61,187 nt of DNA from Pseudobdellovibrionaceae bacterium (GCA_023954155.1 JAMLIO010000010.1:1-61187), one strand, 5' to 3'. Counted from the stretch's first letter, positions 8,301 through 19,300 are shown. Numbers and translations: made by a program. Notes: generated by a model not told the origin, from the sequence alone.

Positions 8301-11300
8301 CTACTGAACTTTGGTTTTTTTATAAAACTTCTCTTGAAACTTCATAATCTTTTTAAAGTCTTCTTCTGAAGAGAGTTCTAGCATTAAACGTTTCTTGAAT
8401 TTGCTTTCAATTTCGCGCATTCTTTGAATGCCTTGTTCAATGAACTTTCCGTTGATCTTTTTAGACTCTTCATGCAGTTCGCGGATCATATTGGCTTCCA
8501 TGGCAATAAACGGAACCAGATTGTTTTCACTTAACTCAAGTTCATCTGTAAAGTACGCCTGAAGTTCGATGATCCATTGCTCGCGGTAATCTGCATTTAA
8601 CACCTTATCCACGTAACCATTAGTGTAGAGTACAAGATCTGTGTAGTTATCTTTAAACTCATCTGATTTTTGAGGATCAAAGTATTCAAACAATGCCTCT
8701 TTAGCTTCATTCTTACGTGCTTCAACTCTTTCTGCACTTTCTTTTTTATTCACTTCTGCGATTTCACGGACTTGATCTTTGAAACGTTCTTTCAGAAAAG
8801 GGGCACCGACAAAAACCATAAACACCGCTACCACCGCAGCCACAGCAGACATCTTCCAGAATTTTTTAACACGTTTTTGCTGATTCAGAGTTTTAGCTTC
8901 AAGCATTGTTTCTAACAACTCACCTTCATCAAACACTTCACCTGTAAGTACAGCACCCACTGTGCCTTTGATGATCCCCTCAATGCTTGCTAAAGATTCG
9001 GGCTCCTGTCTATTCAGATAAGGCTTCATCTTGGTCATTAACACAAGCTCAAGTTCTTTTTTCAGTTTTTCAGCATTGGCTTGCAAACGACGTTTTTCTG
9101 TCATTTCAAAAACTTTCTTCTGCTCATCAATATGTCGAACGGCATTAAGCTTAGTCTCTTGCGCTTCCTGCTTGGCATCCTTTAGAGCTTTTTCTGCCTC
9201 ACGAGTGGCTCGAGCTTTGATCTCTTCCACCTCAGCAGTTGCTCTTTCCTTAAGGGCAGCCATCGTTTTATTTGCTTCCTCTACAGATTCAGCCATCTCT
9301 TCATCAAATTTTTTCTTTTGTCTTTCGGCTTCTTCTTTGGCTTTCGCAATAATATGCTGAGATTTTTCTTGTGCCTCTTTAAGATGAGTTTGGGCATCCT
9401 CACGAGACTCATCAATGATATCTTTGGCCTTACTTTGCGCAGACGTGACAACCTTATTCGCATCTGCTTCAGCACCACTTCTTAAGGCTTCCGCCTCATC
9501 CTTTGCTGTCTTGAGGGCTATAGCTGCATTCTGCTCTGCTGTTTGAATGATCTGTGTGGACTGAACTTGAGCATCATCCACCATATTCTTGGATTTAGAG
9601 CTCGCCTCTTCTACTAAGTTTTGAGCCTTAGCATTGGCCTCGTCCATAACCTGTGTGGATTGTGTACTGGCTTCTTCAATCAAACGTTTTGATTCTTCCT
9701 GTCCACTGGCAATAATATCTGCTTTAGACTGGTTAGCCTCTGACTCAGCGTTTTGTTTATAAGTCTCGGCCTCTTGTAAAATTCTTGATTTTTCAGCATC
9801 AGCTTCTTTTAAAATACTGTCTTTTTGTGCCAAAGCCTCGGCTTCGGTATTTTGTTTAAAAGTTTCTGCTTCTTGAAGAATCCGTGCCTTTTCTGCCTCA
9901 GCCTCTTTAACAAGTGTGTCTTTGGCTGCTTGCGCTTCTTCTATTGTACGTTGATTTTCTTGTTTTTGATTTTCCAAGTCAGACAACAGCTTTGCAACTT
10001 CGGTCTTCAACGCATCAGCTTCTTGCTGAGAGTTTTGCACAATAGACTTTAGATCTTCATTTTTAGTTCTAAATTCTTCATTTTGTACTTTAAAGGTTTC
10101 AATGCTTTTTTCAAGATTTGCAATTTCAGACTTTTTACCAACAATCTCTTGTTCTAATGATTGTAACTCTGAAGTGTTATTTTTAATCGTTTCAGCTAAA
10201 CTTGTTTGTTCTTCTTGTAGCTTAGCTACAGCTGTAACATGATTTTGAACTTGCTTTTCTTTTTCTTCACAAGCTTTGTGCAATTCACCTGATTTAGCAA
10301 TAAGTTCACTTAATGTATTACTCAAGTCAGATAATTTTTTGTTGGTGACCTGTTGCTCTTGTTCTTTTTGCAGCACTTCCGTAGCAATAGCTTTCTTTTT
10401 TTCTTCTAAATTAGAAATTTCATTTAACAGTGCAGTTTTATCCCCTTGCAGGCTTTTTGTAGCACTGTCCATCTCTTGTCGTATTTTATCAAGCGTTGCC
10501 TTTTCAGTGCTTACTTCTGCATTTAAATTTCTAATAGTTCCACGAATCTTATCCGCTTCACCTAGAAGTTCACGAATGATCTTGCCTTTCTCTTCGCTTT
10601 CTTTGATCAGTTCTGCACTTTTAGAATCAAAACTACTGATTTCGTCTTTTAAAGCTTGTAACTTTCCTGCATAAGACTCTAACTCTTTATCTTTTTCATT
10701 AAGTTCGTCCTGCAAAGACTGCTTTTCATTCTTTAAAGACGCTACATCTTCTTCTAAAGTGGTCTTTTGTAAATTTAAAGTTTTAATCTCATTACTTAAT
10801 TCACTATGGTCCGCACTTATAGCTGAATGTGAAGCCACATGAGGATTCTCATTCGAGCGGCTAGGGTGTGAGGACATAGCTCCGTAATCTGGTGCTGAAC
10901 TGACAGCATGAGATGCCACCTCGTTCTGATCCTCATCAGAAGATAAGGCCACATTTAAATCTGAATCCTCAGACTTTAAAAAATTCTCGCTCACTTTACT
11001 TCGATCAATACCAGGAGGTCCTGATTGTGTTCTTGGAGGCTGAGACTTAAAGGAAGGCTCCTTAGCCTCTGAATCGAAAGATTCATCAGACTGCGAAAAG
11101 GACGCGGCACCAGAGGATTCCCCACGCAGTTTTTTCTTTTCTTCTTCAATTCTTTTTAATAACATTTCTGCATCAGACAAAGCATCATTCGAAGATATCC
11201 CAGAAGATACTGGCTCAGATGAATCTTTACTGATCTGTTCGTTATACTGCTTGATCTTTTGTTCTCGTTTACCAAGATCAGGCGCAGAAGAATCTGAAGC

Positions 11301-11627
11301 ACTCTTGTCTTCATTGGCAACCAGCCTCAGTATAACATCTTCTTTTGCACCAAAAACCAAGCGATCCGTACTTTCATAAGCTTTAGCATAACCTGGTTTT
11401 AATTTTTCTCCGTTTAGATAGGTACCATTAGTGGAGTTTAGGTCTTCAACTAATATGATACCATCGCGGTACATGATTTTAATATGGTTTCTACTTACAT
11501 TTTGAGAATCAATCTGAACGTCACTTTTTGCAGAGCGACCGATTATAAAATCAGTCGAAGAGCAGATTTTAACCTGCTCTTTTCCCTCTATTTTAAAGTA
11601 TACTTCGACGTTCTTCAGTTTAAACAT
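8301..11627 (-). CDS. FHA-domain, long coiled-coil, single-pass membrane protein (1108 aa)
   Basis: Residues 8-90 form an FHA phosphothreonine-binding domain with all key positions: G30-R31, S45 and H48 in SRNH, and N64/N67 in NSTNGT. A Ser/Asp-rich linker to about 260 follows, then some 600 residues of Glu/Lys/Ala heptad sequence, including repeats such as RILQEAETFKQN and RILQEAETYKQN. One transmembrane helix lies near 922-945 (MSAVAAVVAVFMVFVGAPF), leaving about 160 helical residues outside the cytoplasm. The gene is last in a three-gene unit after OmpA/MotB-like and MotA/ExbB-like genes, with a 21-nt gap. It is plausibly a phosphorylation-sensing cytoplasmic fibre attached to that ion-driven complex. 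Its precise role is unknown. Confidence 0.85.
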   Translation of the reverse strand: MFKLKNVEVYFKIEGKEQVKICSSTDFIIGRSAKSDVQIDSQNVSRNHIKIMYRDGIILVEDLNSTNGTYLNGEKLKPGYAKAYESTDRLVFGAKEDVILRLVANEDKSASDSSAPDLGKREQKIKQYNEQISKDSSEPVSSGISSNDALSDAEMLLKRIEEEKKKLRGESSGAASFSQSDESFDSEAKEPSFKSQPPRTQSGPPGIDRSKVSENFLKSEDSDLNVALSSDEDQNEVASHAVSSAPDYGAMSSHPSRSNENPHVASHSAISADHSELSNEIKTLNLQKTTLEEDVASLKNEKQSLQDELNEKDKELESYAGKLQALKDEISSFDSKSAELIKESEEKGKIIRELLGEADKIRGTIRNLNAEVSTEKATLDKIRQEMDSATKSLQGDKTALLNEISNLEEKKKAIATEVLQKEQEQQVTNKKLSDLSNTLSELIAKSGELHKACEEKEKQVQNHVTAVAKLQEEQTSLAETIKNNTSELQSLEQEIVGKKSEIANLEKSIETFKVQNEEFRTKNEDLKSIVQNSQQEADALKTEVAKLLSDLENQKQENQRTIEEAQAAKDTLVKEAEAEKARILQEAETFKQNTEAEALAQKDSILKEADAEKSRILQEAETYKQNAESEANQSKADIIASGQEESKRLIEEASTQSTQVMDEANAKAQNLVEEASSKSKNMVDDAQVQSTQIIQTAEQNAAIALKTAKDEAEALRSGAEADANKVVTSAQSKAKDIIDESREDAQTHLKEAQEKSQHIIAKAKEEAERQKKKFDEEMAESVEEANKTMAALKERATAEVEEIKARATREAEKALKDAKQEAQETKLNAVRHIDEQKKVFEMTEKRRLQANAEKLKKELELVLMTKMKPYLNRQEPESLASIEGIIKGTVGAVLTGEVFDEGELLETMLEAKTLNQQKRVKKFWKMSAVAAVVAVFMVFVGAPFLKERFKDQVREIAEVNKKESAERVEARKNEAKEALFEYFDPQKSDEFKDNYTDLVLYTNGYVDKVLNADYREQWIIELQAYFTDELELSENNLVPFIAMEANMIRELHEESKKINGKFIEQGIQRMREIESKFKKRLMLELSSEEDFKKIMKFQEKFYKKTKVQ

Positions 11628-11648
11628 TTTTTACTCTATATTGCTCTC

Positions 11649-12575
11649 TTATGAAGCTTTTTTCCTTTTCTTTCCAAGAATCAATTCTTCGTTTAATGCT
11701 TGCTCTGCAAGAACTTCATCTGGGTTTCTGTTCTCGTCAAACTCTGTTAAGTCATCTGGAACATCATTGTTTGCACTTAGGTGCCATAATGTATCCAACG
11801 CACTTTCCATTCTTTCAACAGCAGACACAAAAAGTTTTTCTGGTGACAAACTTGTATTGAATAGGTTGAGAGTCACTGACAACGAAATACCCATTAAAGA
11901 TGTACTCATCGCAAAAGCAATTTGAATCAAGAAGTTGTCCATTACAGCTTTAGTTGCATCTGGATCAGCAATGTCCATAGCACCTAGTTCTGGTAGTGCT
12001 TGCATAATACCTAAGAATGTACCAAATACCCCAAGTACGATGAAGATACCTGGTAATGTGTTGATCACATCGTTTAAAGTATTGATCGAAAAGATTCCAA
12101 AAACTTTGCTAAAGCAAGGGTTCTTTGAAAATGCCTTTTGAGTGATCGTACCTAATCTAGGATGGTTCGCCTCGTTATATCTAACATGCTTTAAGTGTTT
12201 AAGCATATCGTCTACAAGAAAAGCAGCACCTTGTTTAATCATAAATACTCTATCACCAACAGTCATCACGAAGTCAGGCTTTCTTCTTTTCATAATGAAT
12301 CTGACCTTAAACAACTCATAATAAGTCTTTTCTAATAGTCGTTTAGTAATAACGTAGAATGAAAGAGAGGTCTTTGTTGATCTTTCATCTAAAAAGTTTT
12401 CAATTCTTTTTTCAAACTCTTTAGCCATCCACTCTTCACGTTTAACAGTATAGTAGATGATAAATCTTACTACTATTGCTGAAATAAACGCGAACATCAT
12501 CACTGGTATTAGCCAGTGGGAGGCAAAAGCCACCAAGGCATCTACAAATCCATGCACTACTTTTTGCGTTTCCAT
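11649..12575 (-). CDS. MotA/TolQ/ExbB-family proton-channel-like protein
   Basis: The 308-residue inner-membrane protein has a first helix at about 21-43, a cytoplasmic segment of about 130 residues, then paired helices at 173-194 (LPGIFIVLGVFGTFLGIMQA) and 215-239 (IQIAFAMSTSLMGISLSV). The GxxGTFLG and Thr/Ser-rich third helix are the conserved pore pair of the MotA/TolQ/ExbB family. It would pair with the adjacent MotB-like subunit, 12 nt upstream, to convert proton or sodium flow into mechanical work. Unlike ZorA of Zorya it has only a short charged tail. A strong AGGAG precedes the ATG. Confidence 0.85.
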   Translation of the reverse strand: METQKVVHGFVDALVAFASHWLIPVMMFAFISAIVVRFIIYYTVKREEWMAKEFEKRIENFLDERSTKTSLSFYVITKRLLEKTYYELFKVRFIMKRRKPDFVMTVGDRVFMIKQGAAFLVDDMLKHLKHVRYNEANHPRLGTITQKAFSKNPCFSKVFGIFSINTLNDVINTLPGIFIVLGVFGTFLGIMQALPELGAMDIADPDATKAVMDNFLIQIAFAMSTSLMGISLSVTLNLFNTSLSPEKLFVSAVERMESALDTLWHLSANNDVPDDLTEFDENRNPDEVLAEQALNEELILGKKRKKAS

Positions 12576-12587
12576 TCCTAAACTCCT

Positions 12588-14321
12588 TTAAGGTTCCATA
12601 TTAAATTTAATCATTACACGTTGCGATTTTTTACAGTCGTATTTTGCGCAATATTCTGCGTTAGTCATACTGCTGATCTCTCTGGCGTTTTCGCCTTCCG
12701 CCAAGAAACTTCGTCCAGTCACCTTCACCATTGGTAATATATCTTTTTGGTGTTTGTATTGGATCTTTGATGTATCAAATACATAGTCAAAGATGGCTCT
12801 TGCTCTGTAATAACTTAAATCCATGTTATAGTTTACAGCATCTCTGTTTGAAGCTTCTAAACTTACAGGGTTGACGTACTTACCTTTATACGTAGGTGAT
12901 GCAAAACCCACGATTTCAATAGATTTAACCTTTTCCGCCACTTTTGGGTCTTGCAATAGACTCTTAGAATAAGCTGGCATGAATTTCTTAATTACATCTT
13001 CCATACCTGGCTTTAACTCGGCTTTGCCAGATTCAAAGTACTCTCGACCAAACGAGATCACCACATCACCTGTGTTTTCATCTACATCTGCCGTTAAACC
13101 TGATTTTGCTAAGTTTTCTTTGATAGCTTGAATGGCTTTTTTCTTTGCGTCAGCCATCTCTTTAAGTTTACTCACGTCTTTAGTAAGTTGTTGTTTTTCA
13201 CCTTCTAAAGCTTGTGCTTTTTCTTCTAGTTCATTTTTAGCTAATAAAGTCTCATCTAAGTTACTTTGAACTTCTTGGGCTTTAGCTTGAAGATTTTTAA
13301 TTTGTCCAGACAAAGCTCTTTCTTTAGCAGCAGCTTCTTTTTGAAACTCTGCCATTCTTTGTGCTCTTTGTTGAGCCGTAAGTTTTTGTTTGGCCAATTC
13401 ACTCTCAAATTTTTGCTTTTCAGATTCAATTTGTTTTTGATGTTGAGTTTGTAAATTTGAAATCTGTTTTGTAAATTTACTTTTCTCTTCCACTAAGTTC
13501 GCAATTTGTGACCCTTGCTGTTGCAGTTCTTGGCGAGCTTGATCTAGCTCTTTATTAGACTCCTGTAGAACTTGTGTAACCTCTTGCAACTCACTTTTTG
13601 TCTTTTCGTTAATGGCTTGCAGTTGGCTGACCTTAGCTTGGCTTTCTTCTTTAAGCTCTTGGATCTGCTCGTTCATTTTATCTTTACTGATTCTATTAGC
13701 CTTATACGCATTTTGAAGTTGAGCAATTTTGATATCTAACTTTTTATTAGTATCTGCAATTTCTTTTTCACCCTTTTTAATTGCGCTTTCTTTTTCTTTG
13801 ACTGTTTTGTTTAAGTCTTCAATTTGTGCCACGTTGTCTTTGATGACTTCGTTCTTTTTAACAATGGTTCTGTCACGTCGCTTAATTCGAGCTTGTGAAA
13901 TCATATTGTTGTTAATAATGTTACGAACCATCTGTTGGTATTGATTTAAAGCTTCTTCTTTTTGTTCATTTTCTTCAGCAAGTTTACGTAGGTTTTCTTT
14001 TTCCTGCCCAGCTTCTTCTTTTAAGAGCACCAACTTATCCATAAGTTGTTCGTACATCTTTTGCTCATCATCAGAGGCACCGTGATGTAGATAATCTTCT
14101 TTTAAAGTATTATAAACTTTGATCTGTTGCTGCAAATCATCTCTTTGCTGTGCAATAGCCTGGTATTCCATATGGGACTGAATGTTTGACGTACCACTTC
14201 TTATGCTCGAAACAACATAGAGTAACAAGAAGATCAGAGACATCACAGAGAACAAGTCAGAATAACTTGCCCAGAAGTCACCTTGATCTTGCTTTTTGAT
14301 TTTATCGTAATCAAAAGCCAT
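12588..14321 (-). CDS. MotB/OmpA-like stator protein with very long coiled coil
   Basis: The 577-residue protein starts with a single helix (about 20-38). Its aspartate D22, in WASYSDLFSVMSL, aligns with the ion-carrying Asp of MotB (AYADFMTAMM). It continues with some 360 residues of coiled coil and ends in an OmpA-like peptidoglycan-binding domain (about 425-577; FESGKAELKPG, IEIVGFASPT, SYYRARAIFDY, QRVMIKF). Flagellar MotB is about 300 residues and lacks this coil. A straight helix of this length would be near 50 nm, longer than a normal periplasm. It is the first gene of the Mot-like/FHA unit, with AGGGTG before the ATG. Confidence 0.87.
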   Translation of the reverse strand: MAFDYDKIKKQDQGDFWASYSDLFSVMSLIFLLLYVVSSIRSGTSNIQSHMEYQAIAQQRDDLQQQIKVYNTLKEDYLHHGASDDEQKMYEQLMDKLVLLKEEAGQEKENLRKLAEENEQKEEALNQYQQMVRNIINNNMISQARIKRRDRTIVKKNEVIKDNVAQIEDLNKTVKEKESAIKKGEKEIADTNKKLDIKIAQLQNAYKANRISKDKMNEQIQELKEESQAKVSQLQAINEKTKSELQEVTQVLQESNKELDQARQELQQQGSQIANLVEEKSKFTKQISNLQTQHQKQIESEKQKFESELAKQKLTAQQRAQRMAEFQKEAAAKERALSGQIKNLQAKAQEVQSNLDETLLAKNELEEKAQALEGEKQQLTKDVSKLKEMADAKKKAIQAIKENLAKSGLTADVDENTGDVVISFGREYFESGKAELKPGMEDVIKKFMPAYSKSLLQDPKVAEKVKSIEIVGFASPTYKGKYVNPVSLEASNRDAVNYNMDLSYYRARAIFDYVFDTSKIQYKHQKDILPMVKVTGRSFLAEGENAREISSMTNAEYCAKYDCKKSQRVMIKFNMEP

Positions 14322-15741: not shown

Positions 15742-15797
15742 TAAGATTTTCCCTACAAAAAGTGACTTTTAAGCCATAACCCGCTATGGTCCCCTCC

Positions 15798-16940
15798 ATG
15801 TCAGATTTTATTTATTTAGATTATAATGCGTCTACACCGCTTGCAGAAGAGGTTTTACAGGCCATGATGCCTTATTTTACTCAACATTACGGCAACCCCA
15901 GCTCGATGAGCCACTCTTATTCTTGGGCCGCAGCTGGTGGAATGACTATGGCTCGCAAACAGGTGGCCCACCTGCTTCATTGCGATCCCTCTGAAATCAT
16001 CTTCACCAGTGGCGCTACAGAGTCCATCAACCTTGCTTTGCGAGGGGTTTTAGAGCAGCAGCCTGAGATTCAAACATGGACCACCGAAGTCGAACACGCG
16101 GCAACTTTTCAAACCCTTAAATCCGCCGAATCCAAAGGCTACAAAATCTTTTGGTTGAAAAACGAAAAAAACGGCCTTGTGCCCATGGACACCCTACGCG
16201 CTGAACTGGAACGCGCTCCTAAAGAAACCCCCAAATTGGTCTCTTTTATTCTAGCACAAAATGAATTTGGCAGTCTTTATGATCTTAAAACTTTAAGCGA
16301 CATTTGTAAGGAGCATAAGGCTCTTCTGCATGTGGACGCCACCCAAGCTGTTTTAACCCAGCCCCTTGATGTTTCAAAAACCCCTGTGGATCTCTTGTCT
16401 TTTTCTGCCCACAAGATCTATGGTCCTAAAGGCACTGGAGCTCTTTACATCAATAAAGCCACGTTAGGCCGCAGTCTTGCGCCTCAAAGTTTTGGTGGAG
16501 GACAAGAGTTTGGACTTCGTTCTGGCACTCCCAACGTTGCAGGTATTGTGGGAATGGGCGCCGCGTGTGCCCTTGTAGAAGCACGCCAAACCAAAGACCA
16601 AGAACATTTTAAAAACCTTTATCATTTTTTCTCTACAAAAATGGACCAATCAGGAGTGAAGTTTTTTCTTAATGGCGATGCCCAAAGTCGTATCTTTAAT
16701 ACCATTAGCATCACTTTTCCTGAACACAATAGCGACACACCACTGACTTTGGCACTAGCCCCATTTTGTCTGACTCAAGGATCAGCCTGTGGAGCTGGGT
16801 CCACAGGACCCAATCGCGTGCTGTCTGCACTAGGACTTAATGAAAGAGAAACGCAAAATACTCTACGTATAGGCCTAGGACGCCACACCAGTGTTTCAGA
16901 ATTAGAAAAACTTGTGGAAAAACTCCAACAAGTGATATAA
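15798..16940 (+). CDS. Cysteine desulfurase (NifS/IscS class)
   Basis: This 380-residue PLP enzyme takes sulfur from cysteine to make a persulfide for Fe-S assembly and thiolation. It starts with the family opening FIYLDYNASTPL. It shows the cofactor pocket TSGATESINLAL, the PLP lysine K206 in SFSAHKIYGPKG and the mobile-loop cysteine C331 in TQGSACGAGS. The GSACGAGS loop suggests the group I (NifS/IscS) type. The ATG at 15786 is in frame, but the ATG at 15798 gives the family-typical start. Neither has a clear Shine-Dalgarno. It is 26 bp upstream of an A-type carrier gene, forming a small Fe-S operon. Confidence 0.92.
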   Translation: MSDFIYLDYNASTPLAEEVLQAMMPYFTQHYGNPSSMSHSYSWAAAGGMTMARKQVAHLLHCDPSEIIFTSGATESINLALRGVLEQQPEIQTWTTEVEHAATFQTLKSAESKGYKIFWLKNEKNGLVPMDTLRAELERAPKETPKLVSFILAQNEFGSLYDLKTLSDICKEHKALLHVDATQAVLTQPLDVSKTPVDLLSFSAHKIYGPKGTGALYINKATLGRSLAPQSFGGGQEFGLRSGTPNVAGIVGMGAACALVEARQTKDQEHFKNLYHFFSTKMDQSGVKFFLNGDAQSRIFNTISITFPEHNSDTPLTLALAPFCLTQGSACGAGSTGPNRVLSALGLNERETQNTLRIGLGRHTSVSELEKLVEKLQQVI

Positions 16941-17428: not shown

Positions 17429-18391
17429 TTAAGTTCTAGAAACTTTGTCCATGGCAATATGGACTAGGGCTTCACCTTGGGTGACTAAGGGCAGTCTATT
17501 GATTCCTACAATAAGTCCTGTATATTCTGATAAGATTCTTCCCATTTCAATCCCATTGATATCGTAGATGCGGCACAAGAGTTGGCCCTTTTTCACTCGA
17601 TCGCCAAGTTGAACATTAAAAATCGTAGTGCCACTAGCAGATGATCTCACCCAAGCGCTTTTAGCAAAAATATGGGCTCTTTCAGGAAGAAGCTTAATCA
17701 GTCCTTTGGGTAGAATTCCAATGGTGGTCATGGCTCTAAGACACCCATTAAGGCCCGCTTGTGTGATCTCTTCGTCAAATCTTAAGGCTTCGCCACCTTC
17801 AAAAACCACAATCTTGACCTTTTTCTTTGAAGCCACTTCACGTAATGATCCATCGCGCTCTTCAGAATTCAAAACCACTTTGACCCCAAAACTTTTGGCG
17901 AAGATTTTAGTTTGGTCGTCTCTGATTTTGGCGCGGATTTGCGGCAAGTTATAACGATGAATAGAGCCCGTATGCAAATCAATACCATGAGTGCATTTGC
18001 TAACGATCTCTTTTAAAAAAGTATGTGCAATTCTTGAGGCCAGACTTCCTTCATGCGAGCCAGGAAACGATCTGTTCAAATCGCGACGATCAGGCAAATA
18101 TCTAGACTTATAATTGTAACCAAAAATATTTACGACAGGAATGATGATCAAAGTTCCTCGAACTTCATTCATCGCCTCATGCTCTAAGAGTTTTCTAATG
18201 ATTTCTATGCCATTGATCTCATCGCCATGAATGCCTGCACAGATGAACATGCAAGGGCCGTCTTTTTCACCACGAATGACATGTACAGGAATTTCTAAGT
18301 CTGTCGCATCATACAGCTTGGCTGCTTTTAAATGAATAAGCCGCCTTTCGCCTGGAAGAATTACGTGACCCGAAATTTTAAGTTTTTTCAC
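17429..18391 (-). CDS. Succinylglutamate desuccinylase/aspartoacylase-family zinc hydrolase
   Basis: The 320-residue protein belongs to the M14-like AstE/AspA family. Zinc ligands appear in CAGIHGDEINGIE (HxxE) and GIDLHTGS, with the substrate-binding DLNRSFPG between them. A glutamate in VVFEGGEAL fits the catalytic base. The last 70 residues form a barrel-sandwich (biotinyl-like) tail ending in VTQGEALVHIA, as in the non-AstE members. It starts with GTG immediately after the rimK stop (TAAGTG), so it is translationally linked to RimK. It may remove or trim the amino-acid modification that RimK adds. That role is inferred from context only. Confidence 0.85.
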   Translation of the reverse strand: MKKLKISGHVILPGERRLIHLKAAKLYDATDLEIPVHVIRGEKDGPCMFICAGIHGDEINGIEIIRKLLEHEAMNEVRGTLIIIPVVNIFGYNYKSRYLPDRRDLNRSFPGSHEGSLASRIAHTFLKEIVSKCTHGIDLHTGSIHRYNLPQIRAKIRDDQTKIFAKSFGVKVVLNSEERDGSLREVASKKKVKIVVFEGGEALRFDEEITQAGLNGCLRAMTTIGILPKGLIKLLPERAHIFAKSAWVRSSASGTTIFNVQLGDRVKKGQLLCRIYDINGIEMGRILSEYTGLIVGINRLPLVTQGEALVHIAMDKVSRT

Positions 18392-19300
18392 TTAGCCCTG
18401 TCCCCTCACTTTGTTGGTCTTTTTCTTTTCGACAGCATTCTCGATAAACTCAATGATCCGTCCAGCGATATCTTTCCCTGAAGCGGCTTCAATGCCCTCA
18501 AGCCCAGGAGATGAGTTCACTTCCAAGACTAAAGGCCCACGATTGGAACGAATGATATCTACACCTGAAATGTTTAGACCCATCGCCTTGGAGGCTTGAA
18601 CTGCTAAAGCCCTCTCTTCTGGAGTGATTTTGATCGCTGAAGCTTTGCCCCCACGATGTAAGTTGGAGCGAAACTCACCCTCTGGAGCTTCCCTTTTCAT
18701 CGAAGCCACCACTTTATCACCAATGACAAAACAACGAATGTCTGTGCCACGCGACTCTTTAATAAACTCTTGCACCAAAAAATTACATTTAATTCCGCGC
18801 AAAAGATCAATCACACTTTCTGCGGCCTTCTTGTGTTCGGCTAGCACCACACCTTTTCCTTGAGTCCCTTCTAAAATCTTAATAATACAAGGGGTGCCTC
18901 CCACTAAATTCAAAAGATCACCCGTCATTTTTGTGGAATCCGCAAAACCCGTGATCGGCAGTCCAATCCCCTTACGAGCCATAATTTGTAAACTTCTAAG
19001 TTTATCCCTTGAACGTGCAATGGCTACAGACTCATTCACCGCAAAAACTTTTCCCATTTCAAACTGTCTTAAAACAGCCGTACCATAAAAAGTAACTGAA
19101 GCCCCAATCCTTGGAATGATGGCATTAAAATAATCTAAAGTCTTTTCTTTATAATGCACGGTGGGCTTATGTGAAGTGATGTTCATATAACATTTGGTGG
19201 GATCAATCACCTCCACCTGATGACCGCGCTGCTTTGCCGCTTCCACGAGTCTTTGAGTCGAATAAAGAGTAGGGACTTGTGATAAAATTCCAATATACAT
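18392..19300 (-). CDS. rimK: RimK-type ATP-grasp amino-acid ligase
   Basis: At 302 residues this matches RimK, the ATP-grasp ligase that adds glutamates to the C-terminus of ribosomal protein S6 in E. coli. ATP-grasp features include the [13 protein letters not shown] loop and the metal-binding [14 protein letters not shown]. The mid-segment [11 protein letters not shown] is typical of RimK. The gene is preceded by a RimB-like protease and followed without a gap by an AstE-like hydrolase. Homologous ligases also act on F420, tetrahydromethanopterin or peptides, so S6 as target is likely but not proven. The start is supported by GGTGG upstream. Confidence 0.9.

Follow-up and report, generated by a model that had tools for sequence, protein, structure and literature searches.

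The window analysed here, a stretch of 61,187 nucleotides from a Pseudobdellovibrionaceae bacterium (GCA_023954155.1 JAMLIO010000010.1:1-61187), carries on its minus strand, at positions 8301-14321, a three-gene unit with open frames of 577, 308 and 1108 amino acids (aa) and intergenic gaps of 12 and 21 bases. The first gene encodes a MotB/ZorB-like protein (B subunit), the second a MotA/TolQ/ExbB/ZorA-like protein (A subunit) and the third a protein with an N-terminal FHA domain, a long coil, one transmembrane segment (TM) and a periplasmic end. We favor, if by a modest degree, the reading that this unit is a signal-gated, ion-driven envelope motor distinct from both flagellar motors and classical defence systems. 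As far as the sequences can be read, this is carried by the kinship of the motor pair, the operon arrangement, the coevolution of a motif in A with the FHA protein, intact ion-path residues, a coil whose length is locked to heptads, and a swap of the third partner in a sister clade. The three-gene arrangement had been proposed in a preliminary description of this DNA; the genes lie where they were placed there, and the recurrence of the unit across the phylum shows it to be more than a chance arrangement.

A motor pair of the Zorya branch

Profile and structure searches place the motor pair in the MotA/TolQ/ExbB superfamily and, within it, on the Zorya branch, with ZorA and ZorB as the nearest known relatives. 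For the A subunit (308 aa, 11649-12575, minus strand), the PADLOC ZorA1 profile fits at 2.9e-10, ZorA provides the best solved structures for the A profile (8VVN at 6.8e-8, 8QYH at 1.1e-6) and E. coli ZorA2 aligns to the same profile at 2e-6. The Pfam family MotA_ExbB (PF01618) is matched at E 1.5e-4 with 21.9 bits, slightly under its cut-off of 22.9, and slightly over it in the genome search (23 bits). For the B subunit (577 aa, 12588-14321, minus strand), the PADLOC ZorB1 profile fits the C-terminal domain (approximately residues 390-577) at 1.3e-33, the best solved structure for the B profile is ZorB (PDB 8VVI, 3.3e-5) and E. coli ZorB2 aligns to it with E 1e-9; both structure-search profiles were made from 29-30 homologues. 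ExbD and TolR profiles found no match in the motor pair, where Zorya-type profiles win.

The residues on which such motors depend are present, as the preliminary description had claimed for both a GTFLG pore helix and an ion-carrying aspartate. A has three hydrophobic segments, like ExbB and TolQ and not four, with GVFGTFLG in the second; its GTF (185-187, including Thr186), Ser226 and Ser233 are invariant, and only about 65-70 residues follow the last TM, so that it has no cytoplasmic tail. B has one hydrophobic segment (residues 22-40) containing Asp22, which is invariant in 26/26 aligned homologues in the context W..YSDLF. Directly after this TM come about 90 conserved residues, then the coil and then the C-terminal domain. 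This last domain had been called an OmpA-type murein anchor; an anchor it may be, but it is better described as ZorB/OmpA-like: Pfam OmpA misses the B protein of the window and matches the orthologue of Bdellovibrio bacteriovorus HD100 weakly (E 0.005). Cys558 and Cys563 are invariant in the B domain (P0003, 12588-14321), and a periplasmic disulfide is possible.

The unit falls outside Zorya proper because A lacks a tail, the gene order is B-A, none of ZorC, ZorD or ZorE lies nearby and scores are far below curated cut-offs (about 37 against 100 bits for A with NCBIfam NF033915, ZorA; 36 against 400 bits for B with NCBIfam ZorB2). A divergent anti-phage system, that is, a Zorya-like sensor of perturbation with an unrecognised effector, has to be weighed, and we regard it as quite improbable. 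The ZorA/ZorB kinship, the patchy presence of the motor (181/369 phylum genomes) and variable third partners, which recall the modular Zorya types, would all agree with it. Against this, a PADLOC scan of neighbours in the window found no ZorC, ZorD or ZorE and no other protein of defence systems, the ZorA score is low as given above, and true Zorya-type loci, with A-B order and a long A, exist as loci of their own in this phylum (genomes G324 and G080). In the Bdellovibrio genus, moreover, the chromosomal position is fixed, and the closer loci that were compared share their neighbours. The preliminary description had likewise judged defence unlikely for want of a flanking nuclease or helicase, and the scan agrees in that no effector stands beside the unit.

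Association of an A-subunit motif with the FHA protein

Where an FHA partner exists, A ends in a motif, NN.LP...FDEhRDPxEALAExAL, which in the window comprises residues 267-304 (FDENRNPDEVLAEQAL, 11664-11777, minus strand). It is found in every FHA-bearing locus (58/62 rows in strict and four in relaxed form) and is missing from seven of the nine loci without an adjacent FHA gene. The two exceptions are L037 and L135. In L037 (genome G022) the motif is kept next to an unrelated gene, which predicted a partner elsewhere in the genome; a whole-genome search then found the FHA protein on another contig (L158). L135 is an outlier with a long disordered tail. Whole-genome searches found no FHA C-terminal domain in the motif-less genomes G045, G050, G254, G061 and G336, nor in the motor-less genomes G003, G018, G031 and G042.

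The same association is seen in occurrence. Gene order is B-A-FHA in 61 of the 70 related loci examined in detail, mostly within unrelated flanks. Among 59 relatives, A is present in 33 and the FHA C-terminal domain in 31, all of them within those 33; the two that have A without it are G045 and G050. Across 369 phylum genomes, type-1 A (assigned by hand using score and length) and the FHA C-terminal domain occur together in 128, A alone in one, the FHA part alone in four and neither in 236. In the A-only genome (G160) the FHA frame runs off the contig end, while three of the FHA-only genomes have a short paralogue elsewhere and the fourth, G144, holds a remnant without A. The latter (L196, 8497-10659) looks like the wreck of an operon, in which a B gene truncated in its C-terminal domain precedes what is left of the FHA C-terminus. 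An FHA gene unlinked from the motor pair had been named beforehand as grounds for giving up the unit; the linkage held in these comparisons, and its exceptions are informative.

The FHA protein

The third protein (1108 aa, 8301-11627, minus strand) has the layout that had been described. An FHA domain (PF00498, E 2e-16; residues 28-93, 11349-11546, minus strand) is followed by a coil at about 270-905, one TM (927-945) with a positive cytoplasmic flank and, by predicted topology, about 160 periplasmic residues. The pocket residues Gly30, Arg31, Ser45, His48, Gly68 and Thr69 are at least 90 % conserved among 23 members, and the length of linker plus coil ranges from 414 to 1115 residues. The C-terminal region, consisting of the TM and a helical periplasmic domain (8304-8984, minus strand), is retained in every member, including those without an intact FHA domain. 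A PDB search with its profile returned just weak, chance-like matches, and a single-sequence AlphaFold model of this part (mean pLDDT 42) was of no use. Short FHA-TM proteins of 481-544 aa with the same C-terminal domain and no motor occur in L189 (4403-9255), L190, L192 and L197, where their genes precede heptosyltransferase-like and mannosyltransferase-like genes, in L189 also a PAP2 gene. This gives the domain a second setting, perhaps in envelope glycan synthesis.

This protein raises what we judge to be the main rival to a signal-gated motor, namely a force transducer like the Agl-Glt gliding machine of Myxococcus, in which A and B form the motor, as AglRQS does, and the FHA protein corresponds to GltG, which relays force to the outer membrane; the set would serve gliding or prey invasion. 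The layout of GltG matches that of the FHA protein (cytoplasmic FHA domain, TM, periplasmic C-terminus), GltG interacts with AglR in a two-hybrid assay, and Bdellovibrio glides (PMC3169522); the C-terminal region is also what all members of the FHA protein retain. Still, we consider this unlikely. Pfam found no TonB domain in the FHA protein, and the motor pair is of the Zorya type and not of the TolQR/AglRQS type. Further FHA genes lie within a few kb of MotA_ExbB genes in the genome of the window (G000 C1:570-578 kb, C2:105-108 kb and C7:137-143 kb) and are perhaps separate Agl-Glt-like sets. Finally, the cytoplasmic cyclic-nucleotide-binding (cNMP) protein that stands in the third place in a sister clade cannot act as such a transducer. 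The earlier idea that the FHA protein supplies the Zorya tail in trans remains a conjecture: the coevolution points to docking on the A C-terminus, but a GltG-like transducer or a regulator fits equally.

The periplasmic coil of the B subunit

The coil of B spans about 330 residues, somewhat shorter than the roughly 360 first estimated, and its coiled-coil character is borne out by a periodicity of 3.53 residues that exceeds the 99 % level of shuffles. It can be measured between two conserved anchors, the YQQMVRNI/N139 region and an AYK..KIxK motif. The inter-anchor lengths (61, 68, 75, 82, 89, 110, 117 and 124) are 5 modulo 7 in 60/63 loci, a count in which the aligner may itself prefer heptad steps in weakly anchored rows; in firmly anchored loci, with lengths of 61, 68, 75, 110 and 117, the same holds for 30/30. 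The coil thus shifts in length by whole heptads, as expected for a true coiled coil. In an AlphaFold model of B (two sequences, mean pLDDT 58), two long helices are separated by a break at 208-212 with a local pLDDT of 85-91. The coil may therefore form a hairpin, but the lengths of the two arms are only weakly correlated (Spearman 0.34, among related sequences).

Alternatively, ion flow could be unimportant and the complex static, tying the membrane to the wall and using the cytoplasmic coil as a scaffold that serves polarity or shape. Such a tether would agree with the great length of the coils in B and in the FHA protein, the weak resemblance of the FHA-protein coil to DivIVA/Wag31 and Scy, and the common scaffolding role of FHA domains. 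The invariance of Asp22 and of the GTF and Ser residues of the ion path speaks against it, and we hold it to be more doubtful still than an anti-phage role.

A sister type with a cyclic-nucleotide-binding protein

In other families, weaker matches to A (E ~1e-35 to 1e-42) mark a second kind of B-A pair (L159-L166 and L188), again with a tail-less A, whose B proteins range from 559 to 1758 aa. Directly downstream, 8/8 loci read have a third gene of some 150 aa, which is assigned in L188 by position. All five of its products tested match cNMP_binding (E 1e-13 to 1e-21), and the eight that were aligned keep a phosphate-cassette-like FGE(L/M)V with the following Arg. In a tree of A proteins (SH-aLRT support) the FHA type forms one clade (100 %), as do the cNMP type (99 %) and ZorA (99 %), with FHA-less loci between them, although long branches limit the deeper part. 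Judging from these comparisons, a cNMP-binding protein replaces the FHA protein as third member in the sister clade. The preliminary description did not know this type. Among sister-type B proteins, that of L163 (8224-15024) carries GLKEALGQAKGKLAGMGKE repeats. Giant-coil B-A pairs also occur without FHA gene, cNMP gene or A motif (L063, L064, L128, L131, L150, L152, L155 and L195).

Proposed mechanism

Stoichiometry, ion flow, docking site, gating and task we infer as follows. By homology, five A subunits would surround a B dimer whose Asp22 carries the ion, and A, driven by ions, would rotate against the wall-tied dimer. B would be tied to peptidoglycan via its ZorB-like domain, with the long periplasmic coil between membrane and anchor. 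The FHA protein would span the inner membrane, with coil and FHA domain on the cytoplasmic side and the helical domain on the periplasmic side, and would dock on the motor via the C-terminal motif of A. Reading of phospho-threonine by the FHA domain may then switch or position the motor, whose force would be exerted, within the periplasm, against the wall or the outer envelope. In the sister clade the cNMP-binding protein would take the third place, with gating by cyclic nucleotide. The periplasm is the probable site of output, as the lever formed by the B coil and the conserved end of the FHA protein are both located there.

Several observations weigh against a signal-gated motor. ZorB binds peptidoglycan, and His141 and Ser143 of ZorB2 are reported as binding residues (PMC11890865); with this numbering placed on the 235-aa E. 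coli protein, Ser143 is retained as Ser475 in the B alignment, but His141 corresponds to Phe473. The FHA domain is absent or degenerate in L136, L139 and L144-L146, so phospho-reading is not universal, and of the phospho-sensing proposed earlier there stands an intact pocket in most members. Within the Bdellovibrio genus, 4/24 genomes lack the unit, including one assembled as a single contig, so it is dispensable. Motif and FHA partner may also have been gained once, which would make their association largely one evolutionary event plus long conservation; as the FHA type is a single clade, the association is strong as conservation and weaker as a count of independent events.

With these points included, a signal-gated motor remains the reading we favor. 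More broadly, and tentatively, such units could be phylum-wide signal-gated envelope motors of predatory bacteria, with a Zorya-type rotor, a lever moved from the cytoplasm (the ZorA tail) to the periplasm (the B coil) and an exchangeable FHA or cNMP reader through which intracellular signals switch a force directed at wall or outer envelope, as might occur in attachment, invasion or growth in prey.

Locus and genomic surroundings

A putative ribosome-binding-like sequence (GGAAAGGG) lies upstream of the first ATG, that of the B gene. The flanking genes encode an ABC1 kinase-like protein, an acyl-CoA dehydrogenase and a cysteine desulfurase. The latter, IscS-like (15786-16940), gave the lone strong PADLOC match among the neighbours. 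At 17429-19300, judged by eye, an aspartoacylase/succinylglutamate desuccinylase-like frame adjoins a RimK-like ATP-grasp frame. A plasmid search with A gave no match. In the Bdellovibrio genus the unit is found in 20/24 genomes, and in B. bacteriovorus HD100 (G190) the operon is located at 1,107,724-1,112,616 on the chromosome, which makes motor function, partner docking and signal control accessible to ordinary genetics in the standard predator. If a task in predation holds true, the unit would be a further force generator in a life cycle where the force behind invasion is only partly accounted for.

Comparison with known motors

The core of the unit, a 5:2 motor of the Zorya branch, is already known. 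The literature searched, including main texts on Bdellovibrio transposon screens, proteome and 5:2 motors (supplements and subscription journals were outside its scope), held no description of the operon. As far as we found, four features are new: the giant coil in the periplasm, the inverted gene order, the FHA partner together with the A motif, and the cNMP variant. The claim of an undescribed ion-driven machine is qualified by the kinship to Zorya, the motor being no unrelated novelty.

With ExbBD/TolQR the unit has in common the short, three-segment, tail-less A, whereas its B carries a ZorB/OmpA-like domain and not that of ExbD/TolR, and TonB or TolA is absent. With flagellar MotAB/PomAB it shares a MotB-like TM with Asp plus a putative wall anchor; it differs in the ExbB-like A, the long coil, the FHA partner and the lack of any tie to flagellin occurrence. 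The MotB_plug-like N-terminus of B, its TM aspartate and the MotA_ExbB domain of A might suggest an accessory flagellar stator, which we nonetheless regard as extremely improbable. The genome of the window (G000, 99 % complete) and G021 both bear the unit and have no flagellin, many flagellated relatives lack the unit, A has three hydrophobic segments and not four, and the nearest relatives are from Zorya. Flagellin is present in many genomes without the unit, and most relatives of G000 have several copies.

Agl-Glt (AglRQS and GltG; PMC3169522) likewise combines an ion-driven motor with an FHA-TM-periplasmic partner. AglRQS, however, is TolQR-like with AglQ/S of 162-194 aa, GltG ends in TonB, and many further Glt genes take part.

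Closest are the ZorAB motors of Zorya types I and II (PDB 8VVN, 8VVI and 8QYD; PMC11890865), which provide the nearest profiles and structures for both subunits and share the TM aspartate on B, the GTF(L/I)G helix of A and, putatively, the ZorB-like wall-binding domain. Zorya, including that of E. coli, has the order A-B where the unit has B-A, an A of roughly 450-670 aa with a cytoplasmic tail where the unit has about 300 aa, and a coil-less B of roughly 215-290 aa where the unit has 480-720 aa. ZorC, ZorD or ZorE accompany Zorya, and an FHA or cNMP protein is the third gene here. The Zorya motor core is apparently not confined to phage defence: the unit is a plausible relative outside defence, built with another lever and a partner that reads signals. 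The two levers are mirror images: the long coil is cytoplasmic and part of A in Zorya, and periplasmic and part of B in the unit described here.

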